Shown here in pieces: positions 5,647 through 46,465 of a DNA stretch of 64,000 nt. The stretch's first letter is position 1. Each line of letters begins with the position of its first letter. Under the pieces are notes generated by a model. It saw only the letters and a program-made list of their open reading frames with translations. It had not been told where the DNA came from and made no database searches. Both the position numbers and the translations under genes were made by a program. The stretch spans positions 2,585,001 through 2,649,000 of the forward strand of contig OX345637.1 of the NCBI GenBank assembly GCA_947044365.1. Direction: 5' to 3'. The stretch is from Petrosia ficiformis (taxonomy: Eukaryota; Porifera; Demospongiae; Haplosclerida; Petrosiidae).

Positions 5647-8600
5647 TCACGTTATCTCTGTCATTTCTACTAATAGATGAGGACCAAGTTTCATCTTTTT
5701 ACGTTCAGTAATCAGTGTTTTCTTCATATCATTTAATATGTCTATCATAGTAGATGATTTTCGAATACTAACGTAACATAATGATGGATGTAGTAACACG
5801 GTTTCCCAGAAGTGATGTATCGTTGATATCCAGTCTTCTTTATATGTATCTCCAGGAGGTAAAGATCGATTGAGTATCAGTTTCAGGAACTTCATGTCTT
5901 CATTTCTCTTCAGCATACTTGTTACATGAGGAATTATTTCTTCAAGATACAATGATGTCAATACCTGTACTGATATCTTCCATGTGTAAAATCTCACTGT
6001 CAGCGATTTTAGATTATGAGTAGCTTCAAAGAATTCTTTCAAATTAATATTTTCTGATAATATAATGTCTACATTCAGCTCTTGTAATGTGTGGTTTCCT
6101 CTCATACCGGTAGTCAGGTATTTGGTAAGTAATACACAATTGGGTGCTGGACTTTTGATCTCCAGACATTGTAATGATTTGTTTGATGACAGCATCAGTT
6201 GAAGAGATTTTCCCACTTCATCATGAAACAAACCAATGTTTTCACAGTTTATTCTTAGAGCTATGACAGTTCTATTACTGGAGAGAATGTTAAACAGTTC
6301 ATTAAGACTTCCTTCTCTCCCTAGTACTATATCCAGATGTTGTAGAAAAGGGTTACAATCTAAATAGATAATTAATGGCATCAGTGGTTTATATAGGGAT
6401 AGACTTTTTAGATTAGTAACATTACTTCCTATTCCAGGCAATAAAGTTTCTGTTTTCTTTACAGGATATGTTATGATATCATGTATTGTATCACTACTGA
6501 TATGTAGTGCTGTAAGAGATTCATTAGCTGGTATGACACATAAAGATGGTAATATTCTTTTAACAGGTGTATTCAGTTTAACAGCTTGTAAAGTTCGGTT
6601 GTTTTTCAATAGCTCTTCAATTTGTAATGACTCGGTATAAGTATAGTATGATGATAGTGAAAAGAACTGGATGGTACCATTTCTCTCTACTCCAGTAAGC
6701 AAACTATTTATTAATGAGTTGAATGGCATTTGTGAGAACTCCATTGAAAATTCTTTAATAGTATGATTTGTAGATAATGCCTTCTCCGTTTCCAGTAATA
6801 AATCGTTATCAATATGCTCTTTGAATTGACCATATAACCTTTTAATGTGTACATGTAGGATACTCAGATGAGGCATTTTAAACAGTTGTGTGAACATAAT
6901 CACAACTGAATCATGACGTATAGTAACGGATGAGTATTCAACATTAGTATAGCTTTCTTGAAGGTACTGACACAATGATGATTGGTGTATCTTAATTACT
7001 GATGTGATATCATTATATGCTGCTTTCATTACAATGCAATTAGTCATGTTTGTATCTTCATTGTAAAGTTTCAGCATGTCATGAACATATTCATGATGGA
7101 GATAATTCCAAGTGATTTTTGAGTTCTTCAGGAGAAAGGACAAACACAATAAATCAAATTGTGATGAATACACTCTATTCACGCAGAGAGTGGAGTTTGT
7201 AATGGATGAAACAAATATCTGACACAATACTTTGTTTTCAGACTCGTAAATTAGATGAAGCAATTGTATAGTATCTGTATCATAATAGGGTTCATGAAGA
7301 GGATAATTAGTATACACTGAATAATGAATTTCATCGCAAAGTAATTGTGGATTCTGATGAAACATATAGCACTGACGAGATTGAAAACCAAACAATGGTT
7401 CCCTTGTACACTGTAAGTTTACCTTTTTACTGAAATACTCTTGATAGCTGTCATCTTTAAGTTCAGTCAGACCTGCCACAAATCTTAGTGTCATTTGAAA
7501 GTGAGTTCCATGGAAATGTTCTCTAAACAGCACATTTTGATCATCATGGTGAGTTATCCACCATGCTGCCAGGAACTCCTGAATTGTTAGATGTAGAAAC
7601 TGATGTTTAGTGGTGTCGGCTATCTTGTAGCAGTTCATTAATCCAAAGTATTTCCACTTGAATGAATGCGATAACTTTAGTATTTCATTTCTATTGAAAG
7701 TGGTATTTTGTGTCTTGAGCTTCTCATAAGCACAACTACAAAGTTCATCAAATGCTCTCTTTTGATCTTCTTGTAGTTCCTCAAGTGATTCAACTGTGTC
7801 TGGATCAAGTTCTTCTTTTTTCATTGATCTCTTTATAGCATAAATAACATAATCTTGTAAAATTTAGTCAAAGTGTTAGGAAGACTAAAGCCACTTAGAT
7901 GATAAACTCTCACTAACATGGAACATACAAAAGGTATATAACATAATGACAAGACATCTTCCCTAATCTTCAATTCCTTTATTAATTGTCCAGCATTCTC
8001 ATCAGTCAGCTCATTCCTAACGTATGAAATATCTCTTGCTTTTTAAAGCCTAATACTTCAACATGATGATCAACAACCTGTAGTCGAAGAAGTTTTGCTG
8101 AAGCATACGTACGTGAAGTAACTAGTACATTACATTTGCGTAGTTGTTTTCCTTGAATTATATCCAGTATGAAAGATCTGTTTTGGTCTCTTCCCTTAAA
8201 CTCATCCCATCCATCAAATATTAATAACATATCTTTACCATCAGTCTCTATGATCTCATCACTAACAGCTTCACACATACTTTTACTACCATGAAATAGA
8301 GAAACAAGATCATAAATCTTTTCAGCTAATGATGCTTCCTCATCTCTGAGAGAAATAAGAAACACAAGAGCAAAGGAACAGTTTTTCATTTCATTGTTAG
8401 CCCACATGTTACACAATTTTTGACAAAGTGTAGTTTTTCCTACTCCTGGAGGTCCATCAACTACTACTTTGATTGGACTATTATCATCATTATGTTTCAG
8501 TACATCTTGCATGTCTATTTTCTCTGATACGTTCATTATATTATCTAATTTCCCTCGTAACATATTCCATGACCTCTTCATCCCTTCTGGTTCAGAGAAA

Positions 8601-8772
8601 CTTCCTCCATGTCCCTTAATGAGTCCGAGTTGTCCAAACTTGTCTCCACCAATACGTCGATCTAACAAGTCATTATATACTACAGGTTCTTCAACATATC
8701 GATCACTTAGTTCTTGAAAGAACTTGTCAGTTTCAGTGGTGACTTTAGATGATATGACATCTAATGACGTAC
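5647..8772 (-). CDS. NLR exon 6: NACHT NTPase, winged helix and LRRs
   Basis: The exon starts with GTSLDVISSKVTT after acceptor 'acatgcag'. Walker A is GPPGVGKTT (about 8,470-8,440) and Walker B is LLIFDGWDEF (about 8,230-8,200), followed by a sensor-like LVTSRTYASAKLL. The frame then breaks by one base near 8,025-8,035 and again near 7,840-7,846. The roughly 180 bases between still encode typical NLR helical sequence (ELTDENAGQLIKELK and CYIPFVCSMLVRVYHL) in the middle frame. From 7,824 a long frame runs to the stop at 5,647, with TIQEFLAAWW and then irregular leucine-rich repeats to the end. Both breaks lie in short T runs and are consistent with single-base losses. Confidence 0.85.
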
Positions 8773-10871
8773 CTGCATGTTTGAATGTATTTCAGAATCT
8801 GATTGTAACAAGAATTATTATTTTATATCCTTACCTAATTCTTTCATCATAGTTTTACATATCACAGACATCACTGAGTTTTTCTGATTAGTTAATACTC
8901 TACACAAAGAAATGAGTGTTTCTGAATTTTCATTGACTTTAAGAGATCTCTGAACTTCATTTAGTAATTTACTGGCCTTCTCATAACGAGGTACACTTGG
9001 AGTAGAAATGATATTATCTTTAACAACATTAGATATTAGATCAACACCCCACAAATCATTAGCAAGTCTATTTGGGTCCGATACCACATCAAGTATTTCA
9101 GAGAAATGTCTCTTCAATATGTTAAATGGTGTTAACTGATTTGGTTCACAAGATACTTGTGTACATGAGTCTTCTATAGATTGTGTTTTCTGTGATGCTG
9201 AAGCTGTAATGGGATCAAAATATTTAGGGTGTGTTGTGAATATCACAAAATTTAAAATTATACTAAGTAAACTAATTGTGTTAATTATATTTAATGCATC
9301 TATGTACAGAAAATGTGTGGTCTTACATAATAATATTATTACCTTCTTGACTAAGTTTTTTCCTCATTGCATCTGCAGTATCTTTCTCTCCACACCTATC
9401 TACTAATGATATTAACTCTTTCCATGATGCTTCTGGTGTGTTCTTACTCCACCAATCCAGTGCTATTTCTATTGCATAGTCATATGTTACATAATCCTTT
9501 ATTACAGCTGTCATCTTTCCCTTTAGCTCTACTGGAACACCCAGGAAACTTGTTAACAAACTCCACTTGCTCTTAAAACTAAATCCACATTCATACAACA
9601 GTGAAACTGCTTTGCTAGGAGTAAAATCTGTTAACAACCATAGATAATAGTAAGTGATATGTAAACATACTTATATAGTAGGTTATATACATGTGTGTTT
9701 AGTACTATAGTTATTATTTCGATTATCTACTCTCCTTGCCTTTTAAGGACCTTCTAGAACTTTAGAAATATATTTCAGGAAGAATAGCCAGCTATTAGTT
9801 CCAGTTTCTACATAAGCTAGTAAAACTACAATCAGCTTTCTTTCTGGCTTCTGCTGCTGTGTATTAGCTATTAGCTTGAGCGAACGTTCTATTAGTGACT
9901 ATTACGCGCCACGCCCATTAATTGACCGAGCCCCCCGAAAATGACGTAACTTCCTTAACTACGTATACAACGCATACTCGCGCAAGTGACACAAGATTAT
10001 ACATTATATATAAACATACATCGAACCCGTGGGAAAGCAATCATAGGGATGGCCCTACGGGCCATTAAAATAAAAGAGGTTGTAGAGATGTTAAAACCCA
10101 AAAAGCATGTGAACAAATTAAACTAACATAAGTACTTACACTGCTATAAAGCAAAATACGAAGTGCTATACTTATGTAGGGTTATATGAAAGTAGTTTGT
10201 TTAATTTTGGGTCCTATGTTAGCCTCCCAACCTTGTTCATATGCTTTTTGGGTTTTAACATCCCTACATCTTCTTTCATTTTATTGAAAATGTTTTTTAC
10301 TATTCTTGTTTCCATTGTTTTTTTTTCTGAATGATGTGAACATTTTTTGTAGATCAGTGAAGTTCAGTCTTTTTTTATATATCACTTATTTTTTATATAT
10401 CACTTATTTATGCATTAACATTCTCTTTCAGTTACAGATGATGTCTATTCTTTATTTCCCTTATAGCACTGTCTGCAGTCCTAGTGTCAGTCACTGAGCC
10501 AATCATTCAGTATTCCAATCATAGTCTACAATATTATTATACAATGGCTTTAATATTAATAATTATTGTATTCCTTATTATAAGAATGTATTTGCTCACA
10601 AATTTTATCTCACTATGCTTATGATTCCAAGCAATTATTACTCCTTTTCAGCTTCCATGTTCCGAGTATACAAATGCGCATGCATAATTAAATTTCACAT
10701 GGTTGGACTAACGAATATATTTTGAATACCAGAATTTTACTATGAATGGGACTGGAATACTTGTCTCTATAATTTTAGCAGAGATTTCAGTTCATCACCT
10801 GCAGTTGAATGTATGGGTGGCCATTTTCTTTCGGTGCCATCCCAACATAGATAGTACTACCGTACTCTTTG

Positions 10872-10905
<34 letters not shown>

Positions 10906-13644
10906 TATACATATATATATATAATACATATATATATAATATAATATCATTATACATGTATAATTGCATAATTATATATAATTATTATATTACTTATCAA
11001 GAGCCTAATATGCATGACCAATCATGTTATTCGACAATTGTTCGCAAAATTACAAATCACATTAAATTTTTTCTCAGACGATATGTCACCAGTGGGTGTG
11101 AGAGATGTCTGTACTCTATTGAACAGTAGGATTACCAGACCCTAAACGATATCTTTAGAATAGGCCCAAGTTTACAAATTGTCGAGATTTTCATGGAATG
11201 TGTTCAACAACATCTCAGAATCCTTGAGCTAAGCAACAGCAAAAGGATCATGAGAAATACATCACAGTTTTTTGTTTACAAGGTAGTGACTTGTTGATTT
11301 TGTTACTCCAAATAAATATGGTGATAAACATTGTATCCACAAATCATATACTCAGTTAAGAATAAAGCCATAACAATTTCACACTATTTAAAACATGGCA
11401 GACACACCCTTGAAAAAATTATTATTGCAAAAATCTGGATGTAAAATTTTATTTGAATTTTCACCATGTATACAAAAAAAAATATATTTAACACACGCTA
11501 CACAGAAAACTTGTATTAGCTTGTAGAGGACTTTATTTACACAATATATATAGGAGTAATATTACCATAAACTAGTCATCAAACATCTGAAGCAGCATTC
11601 AGTAGGATACTGAAGTATCACATATCTATATATTCTTGCGACTGTTTGAGAGAATTGATTTCTAAGTGTTACTAATTGCATAATATCAACTATCTGTTTA
11701 CCAGCAACATCTGTGTGGTGCAACAACTGGCCTTGAAGAGTTAGAAGTTACATTGGTTTGTTTATAAGATGGCTGAAACAATCAATTACATAAACCATTT
11801 TGGAAAAGGAATTGAAAATACACAGGTCACACATAACTATTGTATACTTATGCTATACCAGAAATTATAGCAAAGATTCTGTTACATTGTTTTGTATGTT
11901 GTAGATTCCACTCCCGAACTAAATGTTGTATTTGATATTAAAATCCATTAAATTTATCAACAAGTATTCTCAAAGACATGGTATGTAATAAAACCTTACA
12001 TTATTTCACTTACCACATTCTTGTTTCAGTTGGTTTGCTAGGGCATTTTCTCCTACCATATCAAGTGTAGCGGATAATTTCAGTAGCCCTTCTTCATATG
12101 TGGAGAAACTTGTATCTCTCCTCAACCATTCATTCAACATTTCTAACACACAGCTTGACATTCTATCACGATTATTATATTCAATCTCTTCTACAACAGA
12201 ACCTAATCCTAGTAGTTGTCCAACACGTTTCCAATCCCTCAGGATGGTAATCTGGGCTACTCGTATTTGTAATTTCTCTCGATCATCAGTACTTAATATT
12301 TTCTTTGTTAATATTACACTGCCATTCTTTTTACATTCATCCATTGATATACCTGAAAGTAACAAGAGTGTATGGTAAGCAAACATGTATACAGTAGAGT
12401 TCTTAGGATTTGTTTTATGGTGAAGTATGAACATTGACCAGTGATTTTGGGGCAACAACATCATGAAAATGTTGAATTGAAATAATCACAATAGTTTAAT
12501 TATCACAGTTTTAAATGTTAAGATTCAGTTCTTGAAGCCATTGCAGGCAGTAGTTGGAATATGTGACCAAGCAAGTGAAAAAGGATTAAAAGTAACAAAA
12601 ATTTTTACTCCTGTTAGTATAACAAAAAATTCACATGCAGAAACCAAACACTACAATGATTTCAGTTTTATTGTTTATAATTCCTTGGTTACATGTTGTG
12701 CAACACTTGAACCACACATCATTATAGTATGTGTAGGACGAGCATTTAAAGCACGCCATTATCATTGTAATTAATATTTATATTGCGCTAAATGGGTGTT
12801 TTCTCAAAATCTAATTTTCCCAGTGGATAATATTTAAGCAGCCATAACTTAAGCCACATTACAAAACCAATACATCAGCATGAGGCTAATGATGTGTACA
12901 GTACATACATGTAAAAATACATTTTAAAATGTTGTTATTTTTCACCCCTTTTCGCTTGCTTTGGTGCATATCTTAGTGTAAATGTATTTTGGAGGCTTGT
13001 GGGTGGGTGGTTTGGGAGCTGGAAATGTTGTGGGAAGCTGATAGTAAGAATTATTTTTCATTATAATGTAATCAATACAAGTAACACTTCCTTTCACAGT
13101 GTATGATGCTTAACTATAATTATCTTCTTCATTCAGTTTGTTCCTCATTGTTTGTGCAGTATCTTTCTCTCCACACCTGTCTACTGATGATATTAACTCT
13201 TTCCACGATGCTTCTGATGTGTTCTTAATCCACCAATCTAATGCTATTTGTAATGCATATTCATATGCTTCATCTTCCTTTATTATAGCTCTCATCTTTT
13301 CCTTTTGTTCTAGTGGAACATTCAAGATATTTGTTAACCGATTCCAATTACTCTTACAATTAAATCCACAATCACTGAGCAGAATTACTGCTTTATCAGG
13401 AGTAATTTCTGTTATTGAATATAGAAAAATATGAAGGATTATACTTCTTGTAAACATAGATCATATTTATATAGTAGGTTATATATATCTGTGTTTGGTA
13501 CTATATTGAACATATTAATAACTAACCCACAGGTCCAGGATTTGATTCAATATCACCAGAAAGTATAAGTTGTAGAAATATACACACAGTTAGTGTATAC
13601 AACCACACACTAGTATGACAGAGTAATGTTCTAAGAACATTCAT
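5647..13644 (-). CDS. NLR receptor: 2A leader, Death-like x3, CARD-like, NACHT, LRR (two frameshifts)
   Basis: Six exons on the minus strand can be joined with GT-AG introns that are all phase 1: 13,644-13,527; 13,408-13,115; 12,352-12,014; 9,627-9,343; 9,203-8,835; 8,772-5,647. Allowing for two single-base losses in the last exon, the summed length is a whole number of codons, giving about 1,510 residues. In order, the product has a 38-residue hydrophobic leader ending in a 2A motif, three death-fold domains, a CARD-like helical domain, a NACHT NTPase, a winged-helix segment and LRRs. The family (NOD-like receptors) comprises cytosolic sensors that oligomerise through NACHT and signal through death-fold domains. 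The frameshifts make it uncertain whether this copy is active. Exon joins are my prediction. Confidence 0.85.
8835..9203 (-). CDS. NLR exon 5: CARD-like helical domain
   Basis: The exon encodes 123 residues. After a polar Ser/Thr/Gln-rich linker comes an all-helical segment, LKRHFSEILDVVSDP, then LANDLWGVDLIS, KASKLLNEVQRSLK and VICKTMMKELG. The spacing of hydrophobic residues and the P-x-x-LA-x-x-LW signature are those of CARD/death-fold domains placed before NACHT in invertebrate NLRs. The call of CARD rather than another death-fold subtype is tentative. Acceptor 'ccattacag', donor GTAAGG. Confidence 0.6.
9343..9627 (-). CDS. NLR exon 4: Death-like domain (copy 2)
   Basis: The exon encodes about 95 residues: SKAVSLLYECGF, a KSKW core, ALDWWSKNTPEASWKELI, and VDRCGEKDTADAMRKKL. 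It is a close paralogue of exon 2. The intron sequence just upstream of both copies is also shared ('ttatatagtaggttatata' at about 9,673 and 13,467), so the duplication included flanking intron. The donor chosen is GTAATA at 9,342, because it keeps the phase-1 frame into exon 5. A stronger-looking GTAAGA sits at 9,326 but would break the frame. Confidence 0.75.
9715..10065. repeat. Dispersed repeat family with 'gggatggcc' end
   Basis: The copy runs from 'gattatctactctccttgcc' to 'gcaatcatagggatggccct'. A shorter copy is at 18,985-19,215. Its terminal half (gacgtaacttccttaactac ... gggatggccctacggg) recurs at 41,935-42,085. Reverse-strand ends lie near 54,080-54,110 and 62,225-62,265. It lies in NLR intron 4 and has no coding capacity. 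Confidence 0.7.
10070..10287. repeat. MITE with about 40-bp TIRs
   Basis: The left end 'gatgttaaaacccaaaaagc' (about 10,087) is matched by 'gctttttgggttttaacatc' (about 10,243). The flanking 'aaataaaag.agg.tgtag' pairs as well. The element is about 215 bp, lies in NLR intron 4, and directly abuts the dispersed repeat. Confidence 0.7.
10288..12013. other. Remainder of NLR intron 4
   Basis: AT-rich intron with a (TA)n block at about 10,875-10,945. The stretch about 10,430-10,530 is similar to the reverse complement of 20,290-20,400. No further domain exon was recognised. Confidence 0.45.
12014..12352 (-). CDS. NLR exon 3: DEATH domain
   Basis: The exon encodes 113 residues with the classical DEATH core DWKRVGQLLGL, followed by MLNEWLRRD, a YEEGLLKLSATL helix and VGENALANQL. 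The acceptor is 'ttactttcag' at 12,353 and the donor GTAAGT at 12,013. Both borders are phase 1, so the exon is symmetric. It is clearly different in sequence from the death-like exons 2 and 4 that flank it. Confidence 0.8.
12353..13114. other. NLR intron between exons 2 and 3
   Basis: Non-coding AT-rich sequence. A short open frame on the plus strand at 12,532-12,774 has no recognisable domain. Confidence 0.45.
13115..13408 (-). CDS. NLR exon 2: Death-like domain (copy 1)
   Basis: The exon encodes about 98 residues with the pattern DKAVILLSDCGF, then a KSNW core, then ALDWWIKNTSEASWKELI, then VDRCGEKDTA. This amphipathic six-helix pattern is typical of death-fold domains. It is about 70% identical by eye to exon 4 (9,627-9,343), so one is an exon duplicate of the other. 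The acceptor is '..caataacag|aaattact' and the donor GTTAAG at 13,114. Both borders are phase 1. Confidence 0.75.
13527..13644 (-). CDS. NLR exon 1: hydrophobic leader plus 2A-like ribosome-skipping motif
   Basis: From ATG at 13,644 the exon encodes a leucine-rich, signal-like run (SVWLYTLTVCIFLQLIL) followed directly by SGDIESNPGP (motif GDIESNPGP at 13,557-13,531). This matches the 2A consensus D(V/I)ExNPGP exactly. Splicing at GTTAGT (13,526) in phase 1 gives ...NPGP-V-E at the junction with exon 2. In known 2A sequences, the ribosome fails to join the final Gly-Pro bond. The leader would be released and the downstream protein would start with Pro. N-terminal 2A sequences of this form are known in sea urchin NLRs, where they also act as signal sequences. 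The frame stays open upstream, so an earlier ATG (for example in the 13,833 region) remains possible. Confidence 0.75.
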
Positions 13645-14435
13645 ACATATTTCAATTTTTTCACTCTCCCGGTGATAATCTTTCATCCACTGTATACCTG
13701 GATGAGTTTGCATGTTACTAACAAGTCTGCTATTTATCTTGACAGACCTCATATGACAACACCACATTCCAATACAAACTCTCCATTGTATGAGATCAAT
13801 CATTATGAATATCTGCATGGAAAAAACTTCCATTATGTAGGATTCATGTATGATACTTTAGTGTAAGATCATGCTAAAGCCAAAAACATTATGTACAGGT
13901 ATTTGCATAGGTGGCTGGGTGTATGCCTTTCTTTTAACTTCCCTTCACTAGTAAAGGTGTTGGCTGGCATAGGCGTAAGAACAGTTGATTTGAGGGAGGC
14001 TAAGAATAAATGTACGTTTGACAAGCGAAGCGAGCCGTAACACTTTTAATTATTCTAGAGTGGTGTGGTCAATTAATGCCCATTTAAATTGTTATTAATT
14101 AATACTAATTAGCCCAGATGGTGTTCCACTCCTACCAAAGATTATAGGGATCTAAGGAGGAAAGGTAATATTTTCATTCACGAATTGTTTGAGGCTTTAT
14201 TATGTTGATGATAGGTGAAAAATAGTGAATTAATATACGCTGCCTCATGCTTGTGAGTATTTGGAGTAATGAGTGTGTGGGGATGTGGGTACATATTCCT
14301 GATCTTAGCAACCACCTAGCAGCAGGATGTAAGTATTTGTACATAAATCTGTAGATTGTGTACAAACAAGATAATGTCTCATTTGGTTAGATGGCAAGTG
14401 AATTACAACTCAATAAAGGATAAGGGACTTCATTA
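13645..14435. promoter_or_regulatory. Upstream region of the NLR gene (promoter not resolved)
   Basis: The region lies 5' of the leader exon on the minus strand, so it should contain the promoter and 5' UTR. An in-frame extension upstream of the chosen ATG is open to about 13,833. No convincing TATA box or initiator could be chosen in this AT-rich DNA. Confidence 0.3.
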
Positions 14436-29845: not shown

Positions 29846-30770
29846 TGAATGGTTGCCATACTATTGACTATTCTACACTATTCTTTATTAGTCTTGTCCA
29901 TGATCAAGTCCAGTCATAATCATCTACTAGCTAGCTACTGTTTTAAATCATTGAATCAAGTTTCTTGCAATATATACACAAGCCTTGGTTTGTATCATCG
30001 TAAATGCTATATGCAGCTAATCCACATGCATGCAACTATCCACTATTGTATACATGCATATATTGACATATTGTTCTATATTGTCTTTTCTTCTACATTA
30101 TCTCTAGCTGATGTTATATAATTAATCATAATATATGTGACCTAATTTTCAAAAAGGGACATTTTCCTACAAAATGATTTGATCAAATGCCTACTTACAA
30201 TCCTACAATCACTAGCCCTTCAGCCATTTGGTACAGGCATTTAGTATCCAGGAAAAGCTATTGGTAAGCTTCTTAGATACTGACTTCCCTTACAAAATGG
30301 GGGATTAAATGTGAGCATTTGATAAAAAAGCAGTTGAGTGTCCCTTTTTGAAAATTACGTCACATATAACAATTATATATAATACAGTTGCAAGGATTTA
30401 ACAATTAGTTGGTTGTTCAGAATACATACATACATCTTATACCACAGATACTTTGTACTAGTTATATGCAAGAATAACTATAATTTTGGGGTGCTGTCTG
30501 CTCATATTTCATGTCAAAGAAATTTATACTAAAGTACATGTAATTGTATCTGGCCATCAAAAAGGTTTGTAAACCCGCAAACACATATATACCTTCCAAT
30601 ACTTGCACATTATGTTGTAGTAACATACATGCATGTAGCCACAACATCTTCTATATAATTATGACAATTGACAAAATAAATCGAAACTCGTGCAATTATA
30701 CTACCCAATAGAATGGCTATTTTAATTAATTATTTTTTGGAGTGTGTTATATTAACCCAAAATGACTAAT
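29846..30770. repeat. Segmental duplication, copy 1 (non-coding part)
   Basis: It matches 36,965-37,985 almost base for base over long blocks, including 'catgatcaagtccagtcata', 'aagccttggtttgtatcatc' and 'acagttgcaaggatttaaca'. The duplication continues into the coiled-coil genes at 30,808 and 38,060. Confidence 0.75.
30136..30365. repeat. MITE with 'gtgac.taattttcaaaaagggac' TIRs
   Basis: The ends are 'tgacctaattttcaaaaagg' and the reverse complement 'tgacgtaattttcaaaaagg'. The element is about 230 bp. It is also present inside the second duplicate at 37,255-37,470, so it was inserted before the duplication. Confidence 0.75.
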
Positions 30771-30807
30771 GCTATGAAACGCAAAAGAATCACATGCACA
30801 ATATGAA

Positions 30808-31826
30808 TTATAATTCATCATGGCTGCTATACGTTTTCTGCTCAGCTTCAAGCATTGCTCTCTCCAATGATATCTCCTTTTGAAAATCGACTGCAAGTTT
30901 ACGAACAATATCGAGGGACTCTTGTCGAGAACGATTCTCCAAGACAACTGTCCTTAAATGATATTGTGCTCCTTTAAACTCTCTCACAGTTTCATAACTA
31001 ACACTACCTATGGCAACCCACTTTCCATATAACTCCATTGCCTTCCTCTTAAATGGAAATGATTGAAATACTGTTCTACGCTCTTCTGCATTAGTCTCCT
31101 CCATAATCTGGTCAAAATCATCTGCTATCATTGTTCCCTTTTTGTTTTAAATCATTTAAATGAATTTTCATCTGATTCCAATATGTTGCAGCATTCAACA
31201 TTGCTATGGACACTACTCTTAGTCCACCTAGAGTCTTTAGTAGTGCATTGATCGTTACATCAGCAAGTTCTTTGTCATTTTTACAATTTACAATACCATT
31301 TGTGAAATCTGCAAGGTCTGCCAATGCTTCATCCTTTATCTTTCGAAAGCTTTTCATTTTCTCCAGATATTTATACTTTTCTGCTCCATATGCCTCTTCA
31401 GCATTTTTGTAAGATTTGGTGTCATATACTTCACCAAATCCAAAATGTGAAGTAAAAGCATTAGCAAGTTTTATCAGAGGATTTGACTGAGCATTGATTG
31501 CTATCTTCTCTCGTTTTCGTGCATCATGAAACAAGCCTTCATATTTCTTATAAGCACCTAGGGCTTCTTCTGTAACTTTCTGTGCTCGCTTGATGTCTCC
31601 GACATTTTTCACTTCTTCCTCATGAGAATTATATAGTTTTGTTGCCTCATCTGCCATATAACCTGCTATTTTACCAATAGAAGCAAATGATCCCATAGCA
31701 AGTTTCTCTTTGTCATTATAAATGTACCAATAAGTAGATTCAAGAGCACCTAATACCCGTTCACTTGCTAACCCAAAGTCCGTCAGTGTAACAGCAGATT
31801 TGTCTGCTAGTCCAGTAATTCGAATT
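30808..31826 (-). pseudogene. Coiled-coil family gene, copy 1 (truncated, frameshifted)
   Basis: A minus-strand frame from about 31,820 encodes DKSAVTLTDFGLASERV, MADEATKLYNSHEEEVK, NAFTSHFGFGEVY, LADLADFTNGIVNC and LGGLRVVSIAMLNAATYWNQ. It shifts frame near 31,130 ('aaacaaaaaggg'; copy 2 has 'aaacaaaggga') and ends MIADDFDQIMEE ... EQKTYSSHDEL-stop. Long heptad-like helices flank a Gly/Phe-rich hydrophobic stretch (SHFGFGEVF). The N-terminal signal region present in copy 2 is missing. I do not recognise the function. The helix-hydrophobic-helix layout recalls several membrane-acting helical proteins, but that is only an architectural analogy. Confidence 0.6.
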
Positions 31827-31899
31827 TAAAAGCACTGCACAAAAAGTATTCACTTACTTTCAGTAGTTTTGAGTCTACCTCAATGGAAGTTTTACAAAG

Positions 31900-32864
31900 A
31901 TGGAAACAGCATTTAATCAACTACAGCTAGGAGAAACAGAAAGATCTATAGAAAACATAAAAACTATATCTGGATCTACAGCCGAGTTAAAAACGTCTGC
32001 CAGTAGACTTCATCAGGAAACTATCGCTTGTGAGGAAAATGTGAAAAAGCTTAGGGATAATGCTGTTCGTGTCAAAGCTGGGCATGAAGAGCAAAGACAA
32101 AATCTTCAATATCAAAAGCAAAAGTTACAAGCTGAGCAAGCACGAATAAAAAAAGAGAAAGAGAATGCTGAGGCTGCAGCAAAGCAGGCTAAAAAAAAGC
32201 TGACCAAGCACAACGTGAAGCTGATGATGCTCGGAGAAAGTATAAGAAAAAGAAACGTGGAATTGGAGGATTTTTTAACAAATTACTTGGAAAGCTTAAG
32301 AAATATGAGAAGCGTCAAAAGACAGCAAGAAATGAGCAGCATGCTCATGAAGCCAAATTAAAGAAGCACCAAGAAGAACAAAAGAAAGCTGAACAAAACT
32401 TAGTAGCATTGGAGAGTAAATTGAAGGAGATAAATGTAGATACTAGTTCAGTAGATGAGGCTATAAGTTCCCTACACGAAGCCAATGGTGAGTTTAAGTC
32501 ATTAGCAATTCTAATGCTAGATGCTACTTCATACTGGGACGGAATGCAAAGTTTCACCAATGACTTGCTTAACACCTTAACTACAACACAAGAGGAAGTG
32601 TCTGGGGAGATGAAGATTTGGGAGTCACCAGCATTCCAGTTCAAGGGTGTTCAGTTGTATGCAAAGTGGCTGGCTCTTGAACAGCAAAGTTCGTACTATT
32701 TACAGAACACTGAAGATGTTGAAGCTTAAATAGCTGGTTATGTTAGCATTCAACAGCCCTCTCCTCAGCAAGCTAAAGATATGATTAAGAAGATCAAGAG
32801 TGGACAAGGTATTCTCACTCCAAAGCAGATTAAAGATGAACTTTTACAGCACTACAGTAACTAA
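31900..32864 (+). pseudogene. Coiled-coil family gene, divergent third member
   Basis: It is divergently oriented from copy 1. It starts MET at 31,900 and encodes Gln/Lys/Glu-rich heptads (HEEQRQNLQYQKQKLQ). After an A8 run at about 32,190 the coiled coil continues in another frame (DQAQREADDARRKY, then GIGGFFNKLLGKL). It ends with SLAILMLDATSYWDGMQ and VQLYAKWLALEQQSSYY. An in-frame TAA at about 32,727 precedes YVSIQQPSPQQAKDMI ... LLQHYSN-stop at 32,864. The ML.A..YW..M block and LYAKW block are shared with copies 1 and 2, so all three are one family. Frameshift and stop suggest decay or assembly error. Confidence 0.6.
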
Positions 32865-33430
32865 ACATGAATTTGTAACAAATAATATCTGTTGCATACC
32901 ACAGATATTTGAGTAGTACTTATAATAACACATGTTATACTTATAACTACTATGTGATTTACATACTTTAGTGTATGTATTGTCATTCTATATTATATGG
33001 CATATACTTGATATACTAGTCAATAGAGATAAACATCAGTGAAATACCAAGCAAGAAAACAAATTGGCATTTATTTATACAGTGCCAGGAGTATATTATT
33101 AATTGAAACTCATATGAAGGTTAAAATAACTAATTAATGTTGCATTGCTAAGTAAAATCCAAAAAAATTAAAAACTGCTTATAAAAAATCAGTTATCTCC
33201 TGTGCGATTTTGAATTTTGTAAGAGTGACATTCAATAGTAGTACAAGTATGACTTCACATGAGGAAACGTCCATCTGGCAAGCAAAATGCAATGAGTTGA
33301 AAGGTTACCTTCACAACTGCAATACCATTATACCTGACACCCATTTGTTATTCTATATATTATAGTTTTTGGTGAACTTATCAATATCTAAAGGTCATTC
33401 ATGTTCACCTTCACTGCAAAAAAAGTTTGC
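32865..33430. other. No gene recognised
   Basis: AT-rich spacer. Confidence 0.4.
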
Positions 33431-33431
33431 T

Positions 33432-34075
33432 TATTTCAACCAATCTGTTGGTTACCTCAATTGCATGCACATCATAATGCAGTATTAAGCTGTTGGAAGG
33501 TAAGCTTTTAATTTATAGTGTTGAATTTCTGTGTTCACAATGACTAAGTAAATTAATAGTGGAGGATGACAGATAGAATGTCAGTAATTATGTAAAGTTA
33601 TAGTGGGGAAGTACTGACATGTAAACTGTGAATCATACATGTTATTGTGAACAACATTCCAACACAGAAAATTAAGCTGGCTTATTCTTCAACACCTAGC
33701 TCATTTGAAATGCAATTGACAAAGGCGGATCTAGGGGCGGTGGAGCCGGCGCACGCCCCCTTTAAATTGCACACACCCACATGGTAATGAATGTTTGATG
33801 GCTAAAAAACAAGTAGAATTACTTTCAATTCTAGCAAGAAAGATATTCATTTATATATAGTATTTTGAATGCATAGTATATGTAATTTATATATGTAGTT
33901 GAAGAGTTGGTATGACTTCCAGATTGCACCATATATCAGGTGTCCAAAATCAAAATTTTCTCCCAGACCCCTCTACAACCAATTTAATTACACCGCCCCC
34001 CTTAATCTCAAATCCTGAATTCGTCCCTGATTGAGGTAACCAACTGATTAGTTGAGATAACCAAACTGTGTTGAG
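33432..34075. repeat. Nested inverted-repeat elements
   Basis: The outer arms 'tctgttggttacctcaatt' (about 33,445) and its inverted partner 'attgaggtaaccaactgat' (about 34,030) enclose an inner element. The inner element runs from 'aggcggatctaggggcggtg' (33,724) to 'caccgccccccttaatctc'...'cgaattcgtccctg' (about 34,026). The 'GGCGGATCTAG' end resembles the ends of the hAT at 49,786. No clean target duplication was found. Confidence 0.5.
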
Positions 34076-36964
34076 TTTAGAAACATGTTCATAACTAGTT
34101 TAGAATGACCTATAATGTTTTTACCAACACCATTTTCACACAATTATTCTTCCTATTCTTTTTGTTTATATCAAATTTCATTGCTTCATTATTTATCATG
34201 TATTAACCTTATGACTTTAAACTATACACTATAGTATATAATCAAATTGTATACTTAAAATTTTGATGTCATTGTGAATTTAAACTAGCTGACTTTATAA
34301 TTTCTGCCGACAAAAGAACATTAATTTTATTATATGGCACTTTAATTCAGTGAAATAATTGTTATTGTTACTTCTTGCCTCTTTATTAATGCAGCTTTAC
34401 AATTTGAGTTTTGTTTTATATAGCTTAACGTCTTTTAAAGAAGACATAGCATAGAATATTCATCACTATAATTAGAGTTAGCTGATAGCTTGACTTTTGT
34501 TCTCAATAATAACAATAATAATTTATTAATAATTACAAGTACAGTATATGCATACAATACAGTACATATAGTACTGTATATACATACAATACAGTACATA
34601 ATATGCTAACAAAATATAGTTTATATTAAATTCATTAATAACAAAAAGAACAGTGTTAATAAGATATGATTTTACTTTCATAAGACGTAATGTTGATAGA
34701 TCCTTCCATTATAGGAGATAATACTGGTTTATTATAATTATGAAGATCTAGAACCCCACATACATAGTATTGTTGATCTTAGAAGAGAAAAGCCCACCCT
34801 GCATCATAGCCAATTCATCATCATACTTTATGAATGGTCGTATTTAATGGACAGATTGTTGGCTATCCTCTTTAAGACGATAGTAGCTGCAGGCCAAAAA
34901 CCACCAATGGTGGACAAAGCTAATGGTACCTATGTTTGACTTTTCTCACTCTTTCACCATAATCCCTTCTTATCTCCTGTTGTACAACAATTTAAACAGT
35001 TCAAAATTTTCTGAGATATTGTCACAATGAACAGTAATAATTAATTACAACCAGGATGTTACATACCCCCCCCCCCCCAAATATTGACCAACACTGTACA
35101 AATATTAACTTGGTGACCCCAATCCCCAACCACCCCCCATAATGGTCTCATCTTTCCTATTAAATGTCATGACATAATAATTAGAATAGCAATAAAGATG
35201 TATGTACCAAAGTGCTACCAACATGGATAACCAGGAAATTGCCATAAATCTGGTGTAAGATTTTTCTATACATGCTGACAATGGAGAAATAAGAGAAGTA
35301 GTATAATACTGAAAACAGACATGTTCTACAATGACTGCAAACGAGGCATTTGATATGTTGTATGGAATCACAAGAGGGAGCTGTATTGATCTTCAAGAAG
35401 CTATTATGAATATTAAAGTGTCTTTTCAGTTTACAGAATTACTTTTCACTGAAAAAATTTGGCTACAAAATCTTCCTAAACAAATGCCACAGTAAAGAGA
35501 ATTAGTGTTCCTTAATGTGTTTTTTACAGTTGATTTTAACATTAGATATAAAACTACTTTACTGTTGCTGTTTGCTCAAGCAATAAAGACCTTTACTGTA
35601 GCTTGAGTGTTCTACTTACTGGCAATAAATCCCTCAATACTATGATTAGACGTGTTGCCAGATGAGAAAACGTGCTACAAGTCATTTGTAGTTATGAGCC
35701 AAATCTCATCCGTGGCCACATGTATTATCCAGTAGCAAAGCAACAAGGGGGATTGCATGTGAAATTCCCTATAGTACTGCTAGTTGTTATGGCAGTACAG
35801 GTGTCAATGGTGTTTAATATAGTGAGCCAGTTGGAAAGTTACCATGTATTGCAGTTATAACTTTGTTAGTTAGCAGACAGAAACACAGAAGGTACCACAT
35901 GCAGTTACTGGTACATAAGTCATAATGTCTATTTACACAAATCAATTCTATGAAAACTGAAAGCAGTGTTTCCTTACTTTCATGTACTACGGAGGTACAT
36001 GTACATACATACAATAGCAAAAAAACACGAAGTCACTCAGCAAACACAGTCTAGTGCAACCAGATCCCTGCTCAGAAAGAAGGTCTGATCTGCTTGGTAT
36101 AAATATATATATAAATAATTATATAATTATATATATATATAATATATATATAGTAGTTGTACTTGCATTACGTTTGTACTGTAAAAAATCTATTGTGTAA
36201 ACAGTATTTAAAAGTGTAGAATCAAAATGTGTAGCTTGCTGTTCTTAGGAGAACACCTGGCACTCATTGACGAAACTCAACACTACTCAACAATACTTAC
36301 AGTTACATAATAGAGACATGTGAATCACGTAGCTAATCATTTCACGCTATACAATCCAATTGGGTAGGTTGATTTACAGTAACAGGGCAGAACTACTATA
36401 CGATTAGCAAACCTAACACTCCTTCTCAATGAGCGTCTGGCTACTTCAGACTTGTTAACACACATCACCCTCATGTCTGAAAAAAAAAGAGTTGTATAAC
36501 TTGAAATAAGCTGTTTTATTGTGAGATTCTATCAGATGGTTCAGGTACCTAAAACACTCTGATACCTAGGCTAACCACAAACAGCTGTATAATAAATAAA
36601 CACAAATTATAACAATACCTTCAGTTCGCTCACCAGATGACCTCTCCATCGTTCGCAGAGAACAGTAGATAATATTTAAGATCAGATCAACCATCAAAAC
36701 CAGGTGTCTGGCATGGCACCAAATACCGGTACCACACCGAGAACCATCTACATTAAAATTATTCATATTCACAATTCATTATAGTGCAACGGAATTTTAA
36801 GATCAGTTTACTGCAAAAAATAGTTAAAATAACTAATTTAGTGAGAGACCACAATATCATTTAAGGGCAGTTGTCTTGGAGAAGTATTAATATTGGTCTC
36901 TCACAGTTTCATAACAAACACTACCAATGGCAACCTACAGCTTCATTGCCACCCTCTTAAAAGG
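34076..36964. other. No gene recognised
   Basis: AT-rich region with a short poly-C run at about 35,068-35,078. A 70-bp block at 36,770-36,845 ('gtgcaacggaattttaagat' ... 'taactaatttagtg') is repeated identically at 37,543-37,606. Small open frames at 35,105-35,400, 35,672-36,020 and 36,566-36,772 have no known domain. Confidence 0.45.
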
Positions 36965-37985
36965 AAATGGTTGCCATACTATTCTATACTATTCTTTATT
37001 AGTCTTCTCCATGATCAGGTCACAGTCAAAATCATTTACTAGCTACTATGTTTTAAATCATTGAATCAAGTTTCTTGCAATATATATACAAGCCTTGGTT
37101 TGTATCATCGTAAATGCTGATTATAATTATTATAGCTAATCCACATGCAGCTATCCACTATTGAATACATGCATATATTGACATATTGTTCTACATTGTC
37201 TTTCTTCTACATTATTTCTAGCTGATTGTATATATATAATAATTAATCATAATATAATTTTCAAAAAGGGACACTTTCCCACAAAATGATTTGATCAAAT
37301 GCCTACTTACAATCCTACAATCACTAGCCCTTCAGCCATTTGGTACAGGCATTTAGTATCCAGGAAGAGCTATGAGTAAGCTTCTTAGATACTGAATTGC
37401 ATTGCCTTCCTGTACAAAATGGGGGTGATTAAAATTATTTTGCCCCTTTTTGAAAATTACGTCACATATAATAATTATATATAATATAATTTATATATCA
37501 CCTTTATCAGCTTTGCCATAATTATTCATATTCACAATTCATTATAGTGCAACGGAATTTTAAGATCAGTTTACTGCAAAAAATAGTTAAAATAACTAAT
37601 TTAGTGGTTAGTACAGTTGCAAGGATTTAACAATTAGTTGGTTGTTCAGAATACATACGTACATCTTATACCACAGATACTTTGTACTAGTTATATGCAA
37701 GAATTACTATAATTTTGGGGTGCTGTCTACTCATACTTAAATTTATACTAAAGTACATGTAATTGTATCTGGCCATCAAAAAGGTTTGTAAACTTGCAAA
37801 CACATATATACCTTCCAATACTTGCACATTATGTTGTAGTAACATACATGCATGTAGCCACAACATCTATATATGACAGTTGACAAAATAAATCGCAACT
37901 TGTGCTATTCCTTTCAACTGTACTAACCAATGAAATGGTTATTTTAATGATTTATTTTTTGGAGTGTGTTATATGAGATAATCTA
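36965..37985. repeat. Segmental duplication, copy 2 (non-coding part)
   Basis: Second copy of 29,846-30,770, with the shared MITE at about 37,255-37,470. It also contains an extra copy of the 70-bp block from 36,770-36,845, inserted at 37,543-37,606 and absent from copy 1. It joins the coiled-coil gene copy 2. Confidence 0.75.
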
Positions 37986-38059
37986 ACCCAAAATAATTAA
38001 TTTTCAAAAATTAACATGCTACGAAATGCAAAAGAATTACATGCACATTTGAATATGAA

Positions 38060-39508
38060 CTACAATTCATCATGGTTACTGTACGTTTTCTGCTCAGCTT
38101 CAAGCAGTGATCTCTCCAATAATATCTCCTTTTGAAAATCAACTGCAAGTTTACGAACAATATCAAGGGATTATTGTTGAGAATGATCTCCGAGACAACT
38201 GTCCTTAAATGATATTGTGCTATTTTAAGCTCTCTCACAGTTTCATAACAAACACCACCAATGGCAACCCACTTTCCATATAACTCCATTGCCTTCCTCT
38301 TAAATGGAAATGATTGCCATACTGTTCTATGCTCTTCTGCATTAGTCTCCTCCATAATCTGGTCAAAATGATCTGCTATCATTGTTTCCCTTTGTTTTAA
38401 ATCATTTAAATGAATTTTCATCTGATTCCAATATGCTGCAGCATTCAACATTGCTATGGACACTACTCTTAGTCCACCTAGAGTCTTTACTAGTGCATTG
38501 ATCGTTACATCAGCAAGTTCTTTGTCATTTGTACAATTTACAATACGATTTGTGAATTCTGCAAGGTCTGCCAATGCTTCATCCTTTATCTTTCCATTTT
38601 CTCCAGATATTTATACTTTTCTGCTCTATGTGCCTTTTCAGCATTTTTGTAAGCTTTGGTTTTAAATACTTCACCAAATCCAAAATGTGAAGTAAAAGCA
38701 TTAGCAAGTTTTATCAGAGGATTTGACTGAGCATTGATTGCTTTCTTCTCTCGTTTTTGTGCATCATGAAACAAGCCTTCATATTTCTTATAAGCCCCTA
38801 GGGCGTCTTCTGTAACTTTCTGTGCTCGCTTGATCCTTGATTCAGAATAATTTTGCATTTCCATTAAATTGATCTTCTTGTTCTCTTCAGTTTCTTGAGC
38901 ATAAGAGACAGCTCTAATAAGCTCTTCGACATTTTTCACTTCTTCCTCATGAGAATTATATAGTTTTGTTGCCTCATCTGCCATATAACCTGCTATTTTA
39001 CCAATAGAAGCAAATGATCCTATAGCAAGCTTCTCTTTGTCATTATAAATGTACCAATAAGTAGATTCACGAGCTACCCGTTCACTTGCTAACCCAAAGT
39101 CCGTCAGTGTAACAGCAGATTTGTCAGTAATTCGAATGGCAAGATTGGTAACTTCCCCCTGAAGAATTGGATGCATCACCAGTCCATTGTAGGGTATACG
39201 AATGAAATTCCAAACTTTCTTAAGTTGTTCAGAAATTGTGCGAACATTCAAATGCATGGGAAGACTTGCCCTAGCATTCTGTACTATCGGAGAGATATCT
39301 GGAGGTTGTTCCAAAAGCGAGTATGAAATTTTATTTATTTCTATCCACTCATGATCAGTCTCTTCCTCTTTTTTTGCAAGTTACTACAGTGAAGAAAAAA
39401 TGATTATATACAGCTTTTTACAAACAAAAAGGTATGGCCGAAAAACTTACCAGTATTTATAACTAGTATGAAAGAAATTATAGAAAGACAGATGTTCTTG
39501 CTTCTCAT
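38060..39508 (-). pseudogene. Coiled-coil family gene, copy 2, with signal-peptide exon
   Basis: A first exon at 39,508-39,451 encodes a signal-peptide-like MRSKNICLSIISFILVINT and ends at GTAAGT in phase 1. The second exon starts after 'cactgtag' at 39,383. The phase fits only if one A is removed from the A7 run at about 39,372, giving KKEEETDHEWIEINKISYS. It continues with LPMHLNVRTISEQLKKVW, MADEATKLYNSHEEEVK and SHFGFGEVF. A loss of about 7-8 bases near 38,594 (after EKM) shifts frame. The tail holds LGGLRVVSIAMLNAAAYWNQ, then another shift near 38,175 before NHDEL-stop at 38,060. A secreted helical protein is the likely ancestral product. Function unknown. Confidence 0.6.
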
Positions 39509-39610: not shown

Positions 39611-39836
39611 TTTAAGGCACTCTGAGCGCTAGGCTGTTTCTCGGAGTCTTCATGAAGAGAGTTCTGATGTTAGCACAACAATTAATCCCCTTTGTTGTTG
39701 TATTTCATGGATTTTACAAATTGTATATGCAAGTAAGCATAAATATGTTCACTCTCTAAGCATACTTTATGTGTGCGAGGCTGATCTGCATATATATATA
39801 TGTATGCCTACAATTTTTTATTATATAATTATTATG

Positions 39837-39873
<37 letters not shown>

Positions 39874-41305
39874 TGTTGGAATTGTAGGTTTGTAGGTCCA
39901 TAGTATGCACAATAATAATTGTTGTTTTAAATTACGCCTTCTCAGTTTATGAGTAGTTGTTTGGGCTGCGATTGTTTTTAAAGCTAATGATGTCTTTAAC
40001 CCAAAGGATACAACAGCTAAGGAAACGAAACTGGCCAATGCATGTTTCGCTTTCTCCCCATCATTTAGCTATAATATATACATTACATAATCTTGTACAT
40101 ATAGTATATGTACACATTTTATAATGACTTGTGGTTGTTTGTAATATGTCAGTTTGTATACTGCGTTATAATATTCATGTATGTATTTAAACCATAATTA
40201 TAATGCAAGTGTATTATATAGACTCTTGGAGTCTATCATGTCACAAAAGAAGCTCTGGTCTAATAATGTACTATATTTATAAAATATTGCACATCTTTAT
40301 TAGTCTCACATATTTTGTGAAGGTAAAGACCATGAGACAAGATCTGCATCATATGTTAATGTATCTCAGTATAATCTTTACTGACTATAATACAATAATT
40401 ATCAAAAAATCTTTTATGGTTTTGAAAGACATTTAAGTTTAAGGAATTCATCAATATTGAAAAAATGTGGGTGGAGTGATGGGTTTGTACATGAGTTTCT
40501 TATAGGGGGTAATGAGATGAACCAAAAAATGAATTTGGTTGACTTGTCTAAAGCTTCAACTTTTTTCAATATTGGCTTAAACGTGTTTGAAATACACCTA
40601 ATTAAGGAATTCATCGATATTGAAAAAATGTGGGTGGAGTGATGGGTTCGTACATATGAGTTTCTTATAGGGGGTAATGAGATGAACCAAAAAATTATTT
40701 TGGTTGACTTGTCTAAAGCTTCAACATTTATCAATATCAACTTAAACGTCTTTCAAAACCATAAAAGATTTTTTGATAATTATTGTATTAAAGATTATAC
40801 TGAGATACATTAACATATGATGCAGATCTTGTCTCATGGTCTTTACCTTCACAAAATATGTGAGACTAATAAAGATGTGCAATATTTTATAAATATAGTA
40901 CATTATTAGACCAGAGCTTCTTTTGTGACATGATAGACTCCAAGAGTCTATATAATACACTTGCATTATAATTATGGTTTAAATACATACATGAATATTA
41001 TAACACAGTGCAGTATATACAAACTGACATATTACAAACAACCACAAGTCATTATAAAATGTGTACATATACTATATGTACAAGATTATGTAATGTATAT
41101 ATTATAGCTAAATGATGGGGAGAAAGCGAAACATGCATTGGCCAGTTTCGTTTCCTTAGCTGTTGTATCCTTTGGGTTAAAGACATCATTAGCTTTAAAA
41201 ACAATCGCAGCCCAAACAACTACTTATAAACAACTGAGAAGGCGTAATTTAAAACAACAATTATTATTGTGCATACTATGGACCTACAAACCTACAATTC
41301 CAACA

Positions 41306-41356
<51 letters not shown>

Positions 41357-41577
41357 CATAATAATTATATAATAAAAAATTGTAGGCATACATATATATA
41401 TATGCAGATCAGCCTCGCACACATAAAGTATGCTTAGAGAGTGAACATATTTAAGCTTACTTGCATAGACAATTTGTAAAATCCATGAAATACAACAACA
41501 AAGGGGATTAATTGTTGTGTTAACATCAGAACTCATGGAGACTCCGAGAAACAGCCTAGCGCTCAGAGCGCCTTAAA
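39611..41577. repeat. 2-kb near-perfect palindrome
   Basis: The left arm 39,611-40,439 is the reverse complement of 40,738-41,577 with only scattered mismatches and a few indels (for example an extra 'tgactata' in the left arm and a longer (ta)n in the right). The outer ends are 'ttaaggc.ctctgagcgcta' on both sides. The centre (40,441-40,737) is two copies of a roughly 160-bp direct repeat starting 'aaggaattcatc.atattga'. Open frames in the two arms mirror each other and are not called. Confidence 0.85.
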
Positions 41578-46000: not shown

Positions 46001-46419
46001 CTGCATTCGGAGTACAAGAAAAAGCGTGACACAGCAAAAGGCAAAGAAAAAGCTTCAAGTAGCAGCAGGCAGCTTACACTACAAGAAAGTTCAGACAAAA
46101 AACAAAAGTGGGATATTAATGATCCTTGTGCTCACCGAATTCACACCAGAATAGGTGATATGACTACACTTGACTACAAGCCCTTCTCAATAGTTGACAA
46201 TGTTGGCTTTATTTGCCTTCTTTGTTCACTGGAGCCAAGCCTATTTGAAACTATTGATCTATTAATTGTGATATCTATTATCTAACCAACTGAAATCAAA
46301 CATTTATTAATTAACATTTCCTTCTTCATCTTCAATGATAAATCATGATAAAACAATAAGATAATATTGGATTGATTATTGGAATATCGGTTAAATACTG
46401 TATCAGTACAACTCTAGTT

Positions 46420-46465
<46 letters not shown>

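Follow-up and report, generated by a model that had tools for sequence, protein, structure and literature searches.

What does a ribosome-skipping 2A (StopGo) motif do at the start of a gene for an NLR immune receptor in a sponge? The question is raised by a minus-strand locus in a stretch of 64,000 nucleotides (nt) from the genome of Petrosia ficiformis (contig OX345637.1, positions 2,585,001 to 2,649,000), referred to below as the window and numbered from its first letter. A sequence-only reading of the window had reported a hydrophobic run followed by GDIESNPGP in a phase-1 exon upstream of death-fold and NACHT exons, and all of these elements are read directly in the sequence. Comparison of the copies makes it likely that the 2A-bearing exon opens the coding part of the genes in an expanded death-fold NLR family, where StopGo would yield a cytosolic receptor and a free leader. 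Labels beginning with L (loci) and C (contigs) denote places in the same P. ficiformis genome (191 Mb); the window lies on C2.

The leader exon and its start

The minus strand from 13644 to 13527 reads MNVLRTLLCHTSVWLYTLTVCIFLQLILSGDIESNPGPV plus G and is followed by a phase-1 donor, GTTAGT. GDIESNPGP is encoded at 13557–13531 (minus strand), and one Val codon and one base separate NPGP from the donor. The AG acceptor of the next exon lies at 13410–13409; it restores the frame into a death-fold-like exon (DF1), which is followed by more death-fold exons and NACHT.

The exon and the protein had been taken to start at 13644, which is wrong for the exon and in all probability for the protein: the exon extends as far as 13812, where an AG acceptor precedes it, and contains a conserved start codon at 13803–13801 (minus strand). 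In an alignment of the upstream regions, to which 10 of the 11 given loci contributed (L061 was empty), conservation was weak before the AG acceptor and strong from the ATG of MIDLxQWRVCIGMWC onwards, and the alignment of 57 genome matches begins at residue 1 of the MIDL leader. Among 28 pattern-matched loci, all of families A and B (see below), the nearest AG was found 3, 4, 5, 8 or 9 nt 5' of the ATG in 27, and 35 nt in L029. Since these distances keep no single frame, we take the ATG as the start and place the intron in the 5' untranslated region (5'UTR). A similarity search of the databases gave 117 related leaders, the window's own included, which may be other copies or assemblies of P. 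ficiformis or come from related sponges. A start codon at 13644 was rejected, with Met found at that place in only 41 of the 117.

The leader so defined has 90 residues up to NPG in the window and 73–96 (median 87) in the 115 database leaders with a readable box. From the N-terminus, it consists of the box MIDLxQWRxxIGxW, a linker that varies, the hydrophobic run and the 2A core. MI[DN][LIH]xQWR was held by 115 of the 117 database leaders, the remaining two being short predictions. The hydrophobic run begins at residue 48–71; the 19-residue window adjoining the core has a mean hydropathy of at least 1.6 in 100 of the 117 leaders, and the hydropathy window ends at most 6 residues from the core in 106.

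The whole core D[VI]ExNPGP was kept in 116 of the 117 leaders, while its x position takes seven residues (S, L, K, Q, A, R and T). Synonymous variation was found in the codons of E, N, the first P and G among 25 distinct family-A leaders from 31 loci, a set that was cut out with the core pattern and excludes L046, whose leader is broken. The ratio of nonsynonymous to synonymous substitution rates (dN/dS), calculated as pairwise averages on related copies without a significance test, was 0.26 for the core and 0.34 for the preceding 22 codons in these 25 leaders; the box, measured in nine distinct sequences, gave 0.14. Across 18 full leaders it was 0.24 in the box, 0.75 in the linker, 0.33 in the hydrophobic run and 0.25 in the core (0.31 for the run plus 2A). 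Judged by these ratios, the layout of the leader is conserved, variable and conserved in turn. Because the box lies about 40–70 residues from the core in the leaders examined, it is probably kept for a reason other than StopGo. The conserved N-terminal box is explained neither by 2A activity nor by a signal peptide.

Leaders and receptors across the genome

The codon pattern for D[VI]ExNPGP was found at 205 genome sites, comprising receptor leaders and open reading frames (ORFs) of transposon type, against 0 when read backwards. The pattern for the box ending in W (W box) was found at 125 sites, again against 0 in the reversed control. With these controls at zero, a chance origin of the core and the box was rejected. 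A 2A core lies 199–283 nt downstream of 94 of 100 W boxes, among the matches listed (100 of 125). Among the six misses in the same list, L128 does have a 2A, L129 and L130 are broken or truncated, and three have an in-frame stop. The counts given here are lower bounds: they cover 100 of the 139 D-V-type sites and 100 of the 125 W boxes, and rest on the 103 scored among 249 NACHT candidates.

A 40-residue leader query gave 60 genome matches, none with an internal stop. With a 93-residue query, 79 matches were found: 57 full-length leaders of family A (56 stop-free), 19 more distant ones forming family D (one with a stop) and three broken or partial. Other leaders with the box make up family B (on C3 and C9), family C and a single E, and set F has the 2A without the box. 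In the A–E leaders examined by eye, a phase-1 GT donor follows within a few codons of NPGP. Further DVESNPGP leaders without the QWR box occur on C3 and C4 (L095, L103, L104 and L105). At one place covered by two overlapping loci (L031:1937 and L032:1500), a DIELNPGP-ITG stretch is repeated 437 nt after the first, behind a DF1-like exon.

A survey of other NLR loci for the same leader exon, as the sequence-only reading had proposed, found it to be widespread. A leader lies at most 5 kb upstream, on the same strand, of 63 of 103 scored NACHT matches, as compared with 1 of 103 in the downstream control and 0 of 103 in the other-strand control over the same distance. Up to 15 kb upstream, a same-strand leader was found for 69 of the 103 (family A, 37; B, 20; D, 12). 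The leader list used for this linkage excluded C3:1276570 (a second core copy) and the broken C10:4230333 and C1:22536321/22536361. Of the 32 family-A loci examined, 31 have DF1 within about 0.7 kb downstream of the leader, matched partly in L064 and L075 and in two frames in L061; the exception, L046, has the broken leader. DF1-like exons are also present 3' of leaders of families B (L031–L033) and D (L045). NACHT matches for which no 2A leader is listed in the 15 kb upstream lie at 53–55 Mb on C1, at 1.6 Mb on C10 and elsewhere.

An intact gene of this kind is L123 (C10:6561050–6566900). Its five coding exons, namely leader, DF1, DF2, DF3 and NACHT with leucine-rich-repeat-like (LRR-like) part, form an open frame of 1,477 residues, and all introns are of phase 1. 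The NACHT domain matches Pfam with an E-value of 1e-25; DF2 reaches 19.1 bits for Death, below the cut-off of 22.6, and a match to NLRC4_HD2 is likewise below the cut-off.

The exons of the window copy are collected in Table 1. The NACHT exon is spread over three frames, with shifts near 8027 and 7855 (tblastn), and the DF1 donor as used in L123 is altered, an alternative GT lying 9 nt further. DF1b has no counterpart at its position in L123, and L082 is without any DF1 or DF1b match. Another copy, L026/L082, lies at a distance of 1.2 Mb; its leader protein is identical to that of the window, and its LRR part contains a separate frame change. Since the available part of the description of the assembly (odPetFici3.1, PMC12648040) gives a consensus quality (QV) of 62.8, the frame changes are probably real decay rather than sequencing error.

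Table 1. Elements of the NLR locus in the window (all positions counted within the window)
Feature	Positions	Strand	Remarks
Pyrimidine-rich stretch with AG acceptor, ahead of the leader exon	13813..13826	-	probable end of the 5'UTR intron
Leader exon	13527..13812	-	coding part 13803-13527, 277 nt, phase-1 end
N-terminal box MIDLIQWRVCIGMWC	13759..13803	-	alignment and genome pattern search
Variable linker of the leader	13612..13758	-	length and sequence differ among copies; dN/dS 0.75
Hydrophobic run SVWLYTLTVCIFLQLILSG	13555..13611	-	residues 65-83; Kyte-Doolittle 19-mer mean 1.72
2A/StopGo core DIESNPGP	13531..13554	-	read directly
Splice donor GTTAGT, phase 1	13521..13526	-	
Death-fold-like exon DF1	13115..13408	-	no Pfam match; in register with DF1b
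Death domain exon DF2	12014..12352	-	Pfam Death, E 1e-05, 26 bits (cut-off 22.6)
DF1b, extra DF1-like exon	9343..9627	-	Pfam Death below cut-off, E 0.044
Exon DF3	8835..9203	-	conserved in L123; no Pfam match
NACHT - helical - LRR-like exon	5647..8772	-	NACHT E 9.6e-24; two frame changes

Elsewhere in the window, inspection by eye gave a minus-strand stretch with coiled-coil-like ORFs in two copies about 7.2 kb apart (29900–39400) and ABC transporter-like exons on the plus strand (44127–55806). Long inverted repeats were found at 39659–41534 (95–100% identity) and at 44860–45423 (100%).

Products of StopGo and competing explanations

The leader exon would be a self-contained unit of box, linker, run and 2A core, joined to the receptor by a phase-1 intron. 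From the established StopGo mechanism, most ribosomes would skip the Gly-Pro bond, so that the leader is released and a cytosolic receptor beginning with Pro is then made, while a minor fraction of the product would remain a fused leader-receptor. Pro at the receptor N-terminus in the case of skipping, as proposed in the sequence-only reading, is supported.

The sequence QLILSG-DIESNPGP of the window fits, by eye, the L-rich hexapeptide class ending in (A/S/C)G; its LILSG ahead of D, together with S at p15, agrees with motifs 2 and 6, and S occupies p15 in 86 of the 117 leaders. In the available part of a study of StopGo cores (PNAS 2026, PMC12846837), the L-rich motifs 2 and 6 are associated with p12 = D and p15 = S, and cores with upstream motifs of classes 1, 3, 4 and 6 (the last L-rich) had activities from about 92.7% to almost 100%. 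For the sea urchin leader SpNLR2A6, about 80% recoding in vitro is given in the available part of Roulston et al. (2016, PMC4981915). Because the window motif fits this StopGo class and the urchin leader recodes at about 80%, a Pro-initiated cytosolic receptor would be expected as the main product, with the free leader alongside. Because the hydrophobic run stands just before the core, it would still lie within the ribosome exit tunnel at the moment when the Gly-Pro bond is made or skipped. The released leader would thus have a tail-anchored layout with the box in the cytosol, and the unskipped product would be anchored or translocated, or might be degraded.

Several observations weigh against this explanation or narrow it. 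In the window the leader and death-fold exons are intact and the NACHT exon is shifted twice, so that the copy is probably a decayed member; the functional argument rests on the receptor family, not on this copy. The 12 listed leaders of families C, E and F were not linked to any scored NACHT match. For at most 34 of the 103 NACHT matches no leader is listed in the 15 kb upstream (C10:5752583, counted among them, does have L128); thus, the 2A is not needed for all NLRs in this genome. DF1 and DF3 had no Pfam match, the LRR-like spacing was seen by eye only, with no LRR match in Pfam for either the window copy or L123, and a database search with the full spliced NLR protein gave no scored relative. 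The loci for dN/dS came from the core pattern or from similarity and were cut with patterns for the core and the start of the box, which biases both towards conservation (none of the 18 was lost). A profile search of PDB with DF1 returned cullins alone, at an E-value of 0.13 or worse, which is not meaningful.

The sequence-only reading had gone further and treated the hydrophobic run as a signal peptide, with the 2A as a translational switch of receptor location, which on our analysis is possible. The run would be a working signal sequence, and the receptor would enter the secretory pathway when the 2A fails and stay in the cytosol when skipping occurs. There is a direct precedent in the sea urchin: in the available part of PMC4981915, a SpNLR2A6 reporter was 85% cell-associated with 15% in the medium, and was found in the Golgi when recoding was abolished. 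The hydrophobic 19-residue stretch by the core in 100 of the 117 leaders also speaks for it. However, the run is not N-terminal, starting only behind a long variable linker, and L-rich runs that end in SG ahead of D form a known StopGo-promoting motif of their own, so that the run does not count as separate evidence for a signal peptide. Dual targeting may coexist with the release of a leader and a cytosolic receptor, and we consider it a tentative proposal, clearly less probable than that release itself. It is, on the other hand, much easier to accept than a core that is not used at all, with the leader staying on the receptor as a membrane anchor. The conserved hydrophobic run would suit an anchor, but the StopGo residues were kept in all but one of the 117 leaders although the x position varies, and StopGo cores preceded by such a motif proved active in tests elsewhere (available part of PMC12846837), which makes an idle 2A improbable.

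Transposon proteins raise a different objection, namely that the leader is a Helitron or non-long-terminal-repeat (non-LTR) remnant lying upstream of NLR genes by accident. Many transposon-type ORFs with an N-terminal 2A are indeed present in the same genome, and Helitron leaders have the box in common with those of the receptors. This origin was nevertheless rejected as very improbable: same-strand linkage to NACHT far exceeds both controls, the leaders share the acceptor and the phase-1 donor, the frame closes two residues past NPGP in 11 of 12 family-A loci and DF1 then follows, and L123 is an intact spliced gene.

The likeness to some Helitron proteins is close. L124 (149–7141) is a Helitron with a single ORF of 2,331 residues from Met, in which a Cys-rich stretch is followed by the domains DUF6570, OTU, Helitron_like_N and PIF1 and by an endonuclease domain. 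Like the NLR leader, it starts with M-x4-QWRxxIGxF, followed by a linker, a hydrophobic run and GDVETNPGP; unlike it, the box ends in F and not W, and the ORF is continuous. Several Cys-rich ORFs with a 2A start with MISLQQWRMTIGCF, MVSIEQWRAAIGGF or similar sequences, with Q at residue 6 as in NLR leaders. Helitron_like_N and DUF6570 were seen by eye downstream of other such 2A sites, for example C2:14088905, C2:1727103 and C1:55799349. The box ending in F was found at 72 genome sites versus 4 in the reversed control; a listed 2A core lies downstream of 33 of the 72, and 39 are without a listed 2A site. Seven of these 39 were examined: L131 has an altered core, and six have no core in the frame examined. 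A database search with the Helitron N-terminus found no scored relative. Because position, box, run and core are common to both, we infer that the Helitron and NLR leaders are homologous, convergence being the alternative. A bolder proposal, which we hold to be doubtful, is that the leader is a mobile module exchanged between Helitrons and NLR genes. Each NLR gene would then be bicistronic, StopGo releasing one tail-anchored micropeptide per receptor, with the MIDLxQWRxxIGxW box exposed to the cytosol, that acts with or on the receptor.

A 2A is also carried by ORFs of non-LTR retrotransposon type. PHD-finger ORFs of this kind, which we take to be CR1-like, are represented by L013, L015, L016, L027 and L028 (the PHD finger is below the cut-off in L013 and L028); an endonuclease domain was found in L013 and L027 and below the cut-off in L015. 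As in the NLR leaders, the 2A ends an N-terminal leader with a hydrophobic run; unlike them, the leaders examined have no QWRxxIGx[FW] box. L051 is a further non-LTR-type ORF carrying a 2A. In L015, L016, L028 and L051, a separate N-terminal signal-like hydrophobic run was seen by eye ahead of the one adjoining a 2A.

Relation to known 2A systems

The sea urchin provides the sole report of an N-terminal 2A on NLRs that we found in the best-ranked papers of an open-licence library, and none of those papers described a 2A in sponge NLRs or Helitrons. In the available part of the urchin paper (PMC4981915), a 2A is counted in 85 of 241 NLRs of Strongylocentrotus purpuratus, and by another count a 26-residue N-terminal 2A in 14 of 87 NCBI entries; that part mentions neither 'sponge' nor 'Amphimedon'. 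The available part of a paper on NLRs of the sponge Dysidea avara (PMC12909245) contains no 'NPGP', 'signal peptide' or 'skipping'.

The resemblance of the sponge receptors to the urchin ones, assumed in the sequence-only reading, stands for the receptor family and the position of the 2A, and is not supported for the short N-terminal signal peptide. As in SpNLR2A, as far as the available part of that paper describes it, the 2A core is at or near the N-terminus of NLRs with death-fold and NACHT domains, a hydrophobic run directly precedes it, and much of an expanded family carries it. The SpNLR2A leader has 26 residues, whereas that of sponge family A has 73–96 and includes a conserved box and a variable linker. 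The sponge leader also differs in being encoded by a separate phase-1 exon that probably follows a 5'UTR intron, in occurring in several families and in sharing its box with Helitrons. Function of the leader was tested in the urchin, while the sponge leader is known from its sequence.

The sponge offers more than 100 leader loci in one genome, with a constrained core, and so a means of testing whether the use of StopGo on immune receptors is a strategy common to animals. Through its conserved box the leader becomes another product worth study, and its Helitron counterpart points to a way in which transposons and host receptors could have elements of translational control in common. With viral StopGo/2A sequences, as described in the available part of PMC12846837, the sponge motif shares the L-rich hexapeptide ending in (A/S/C)G before D at p12 and an intact octapeptide core; unlike them, it is part of host genes for immune receptors, where it closes a leader exon.

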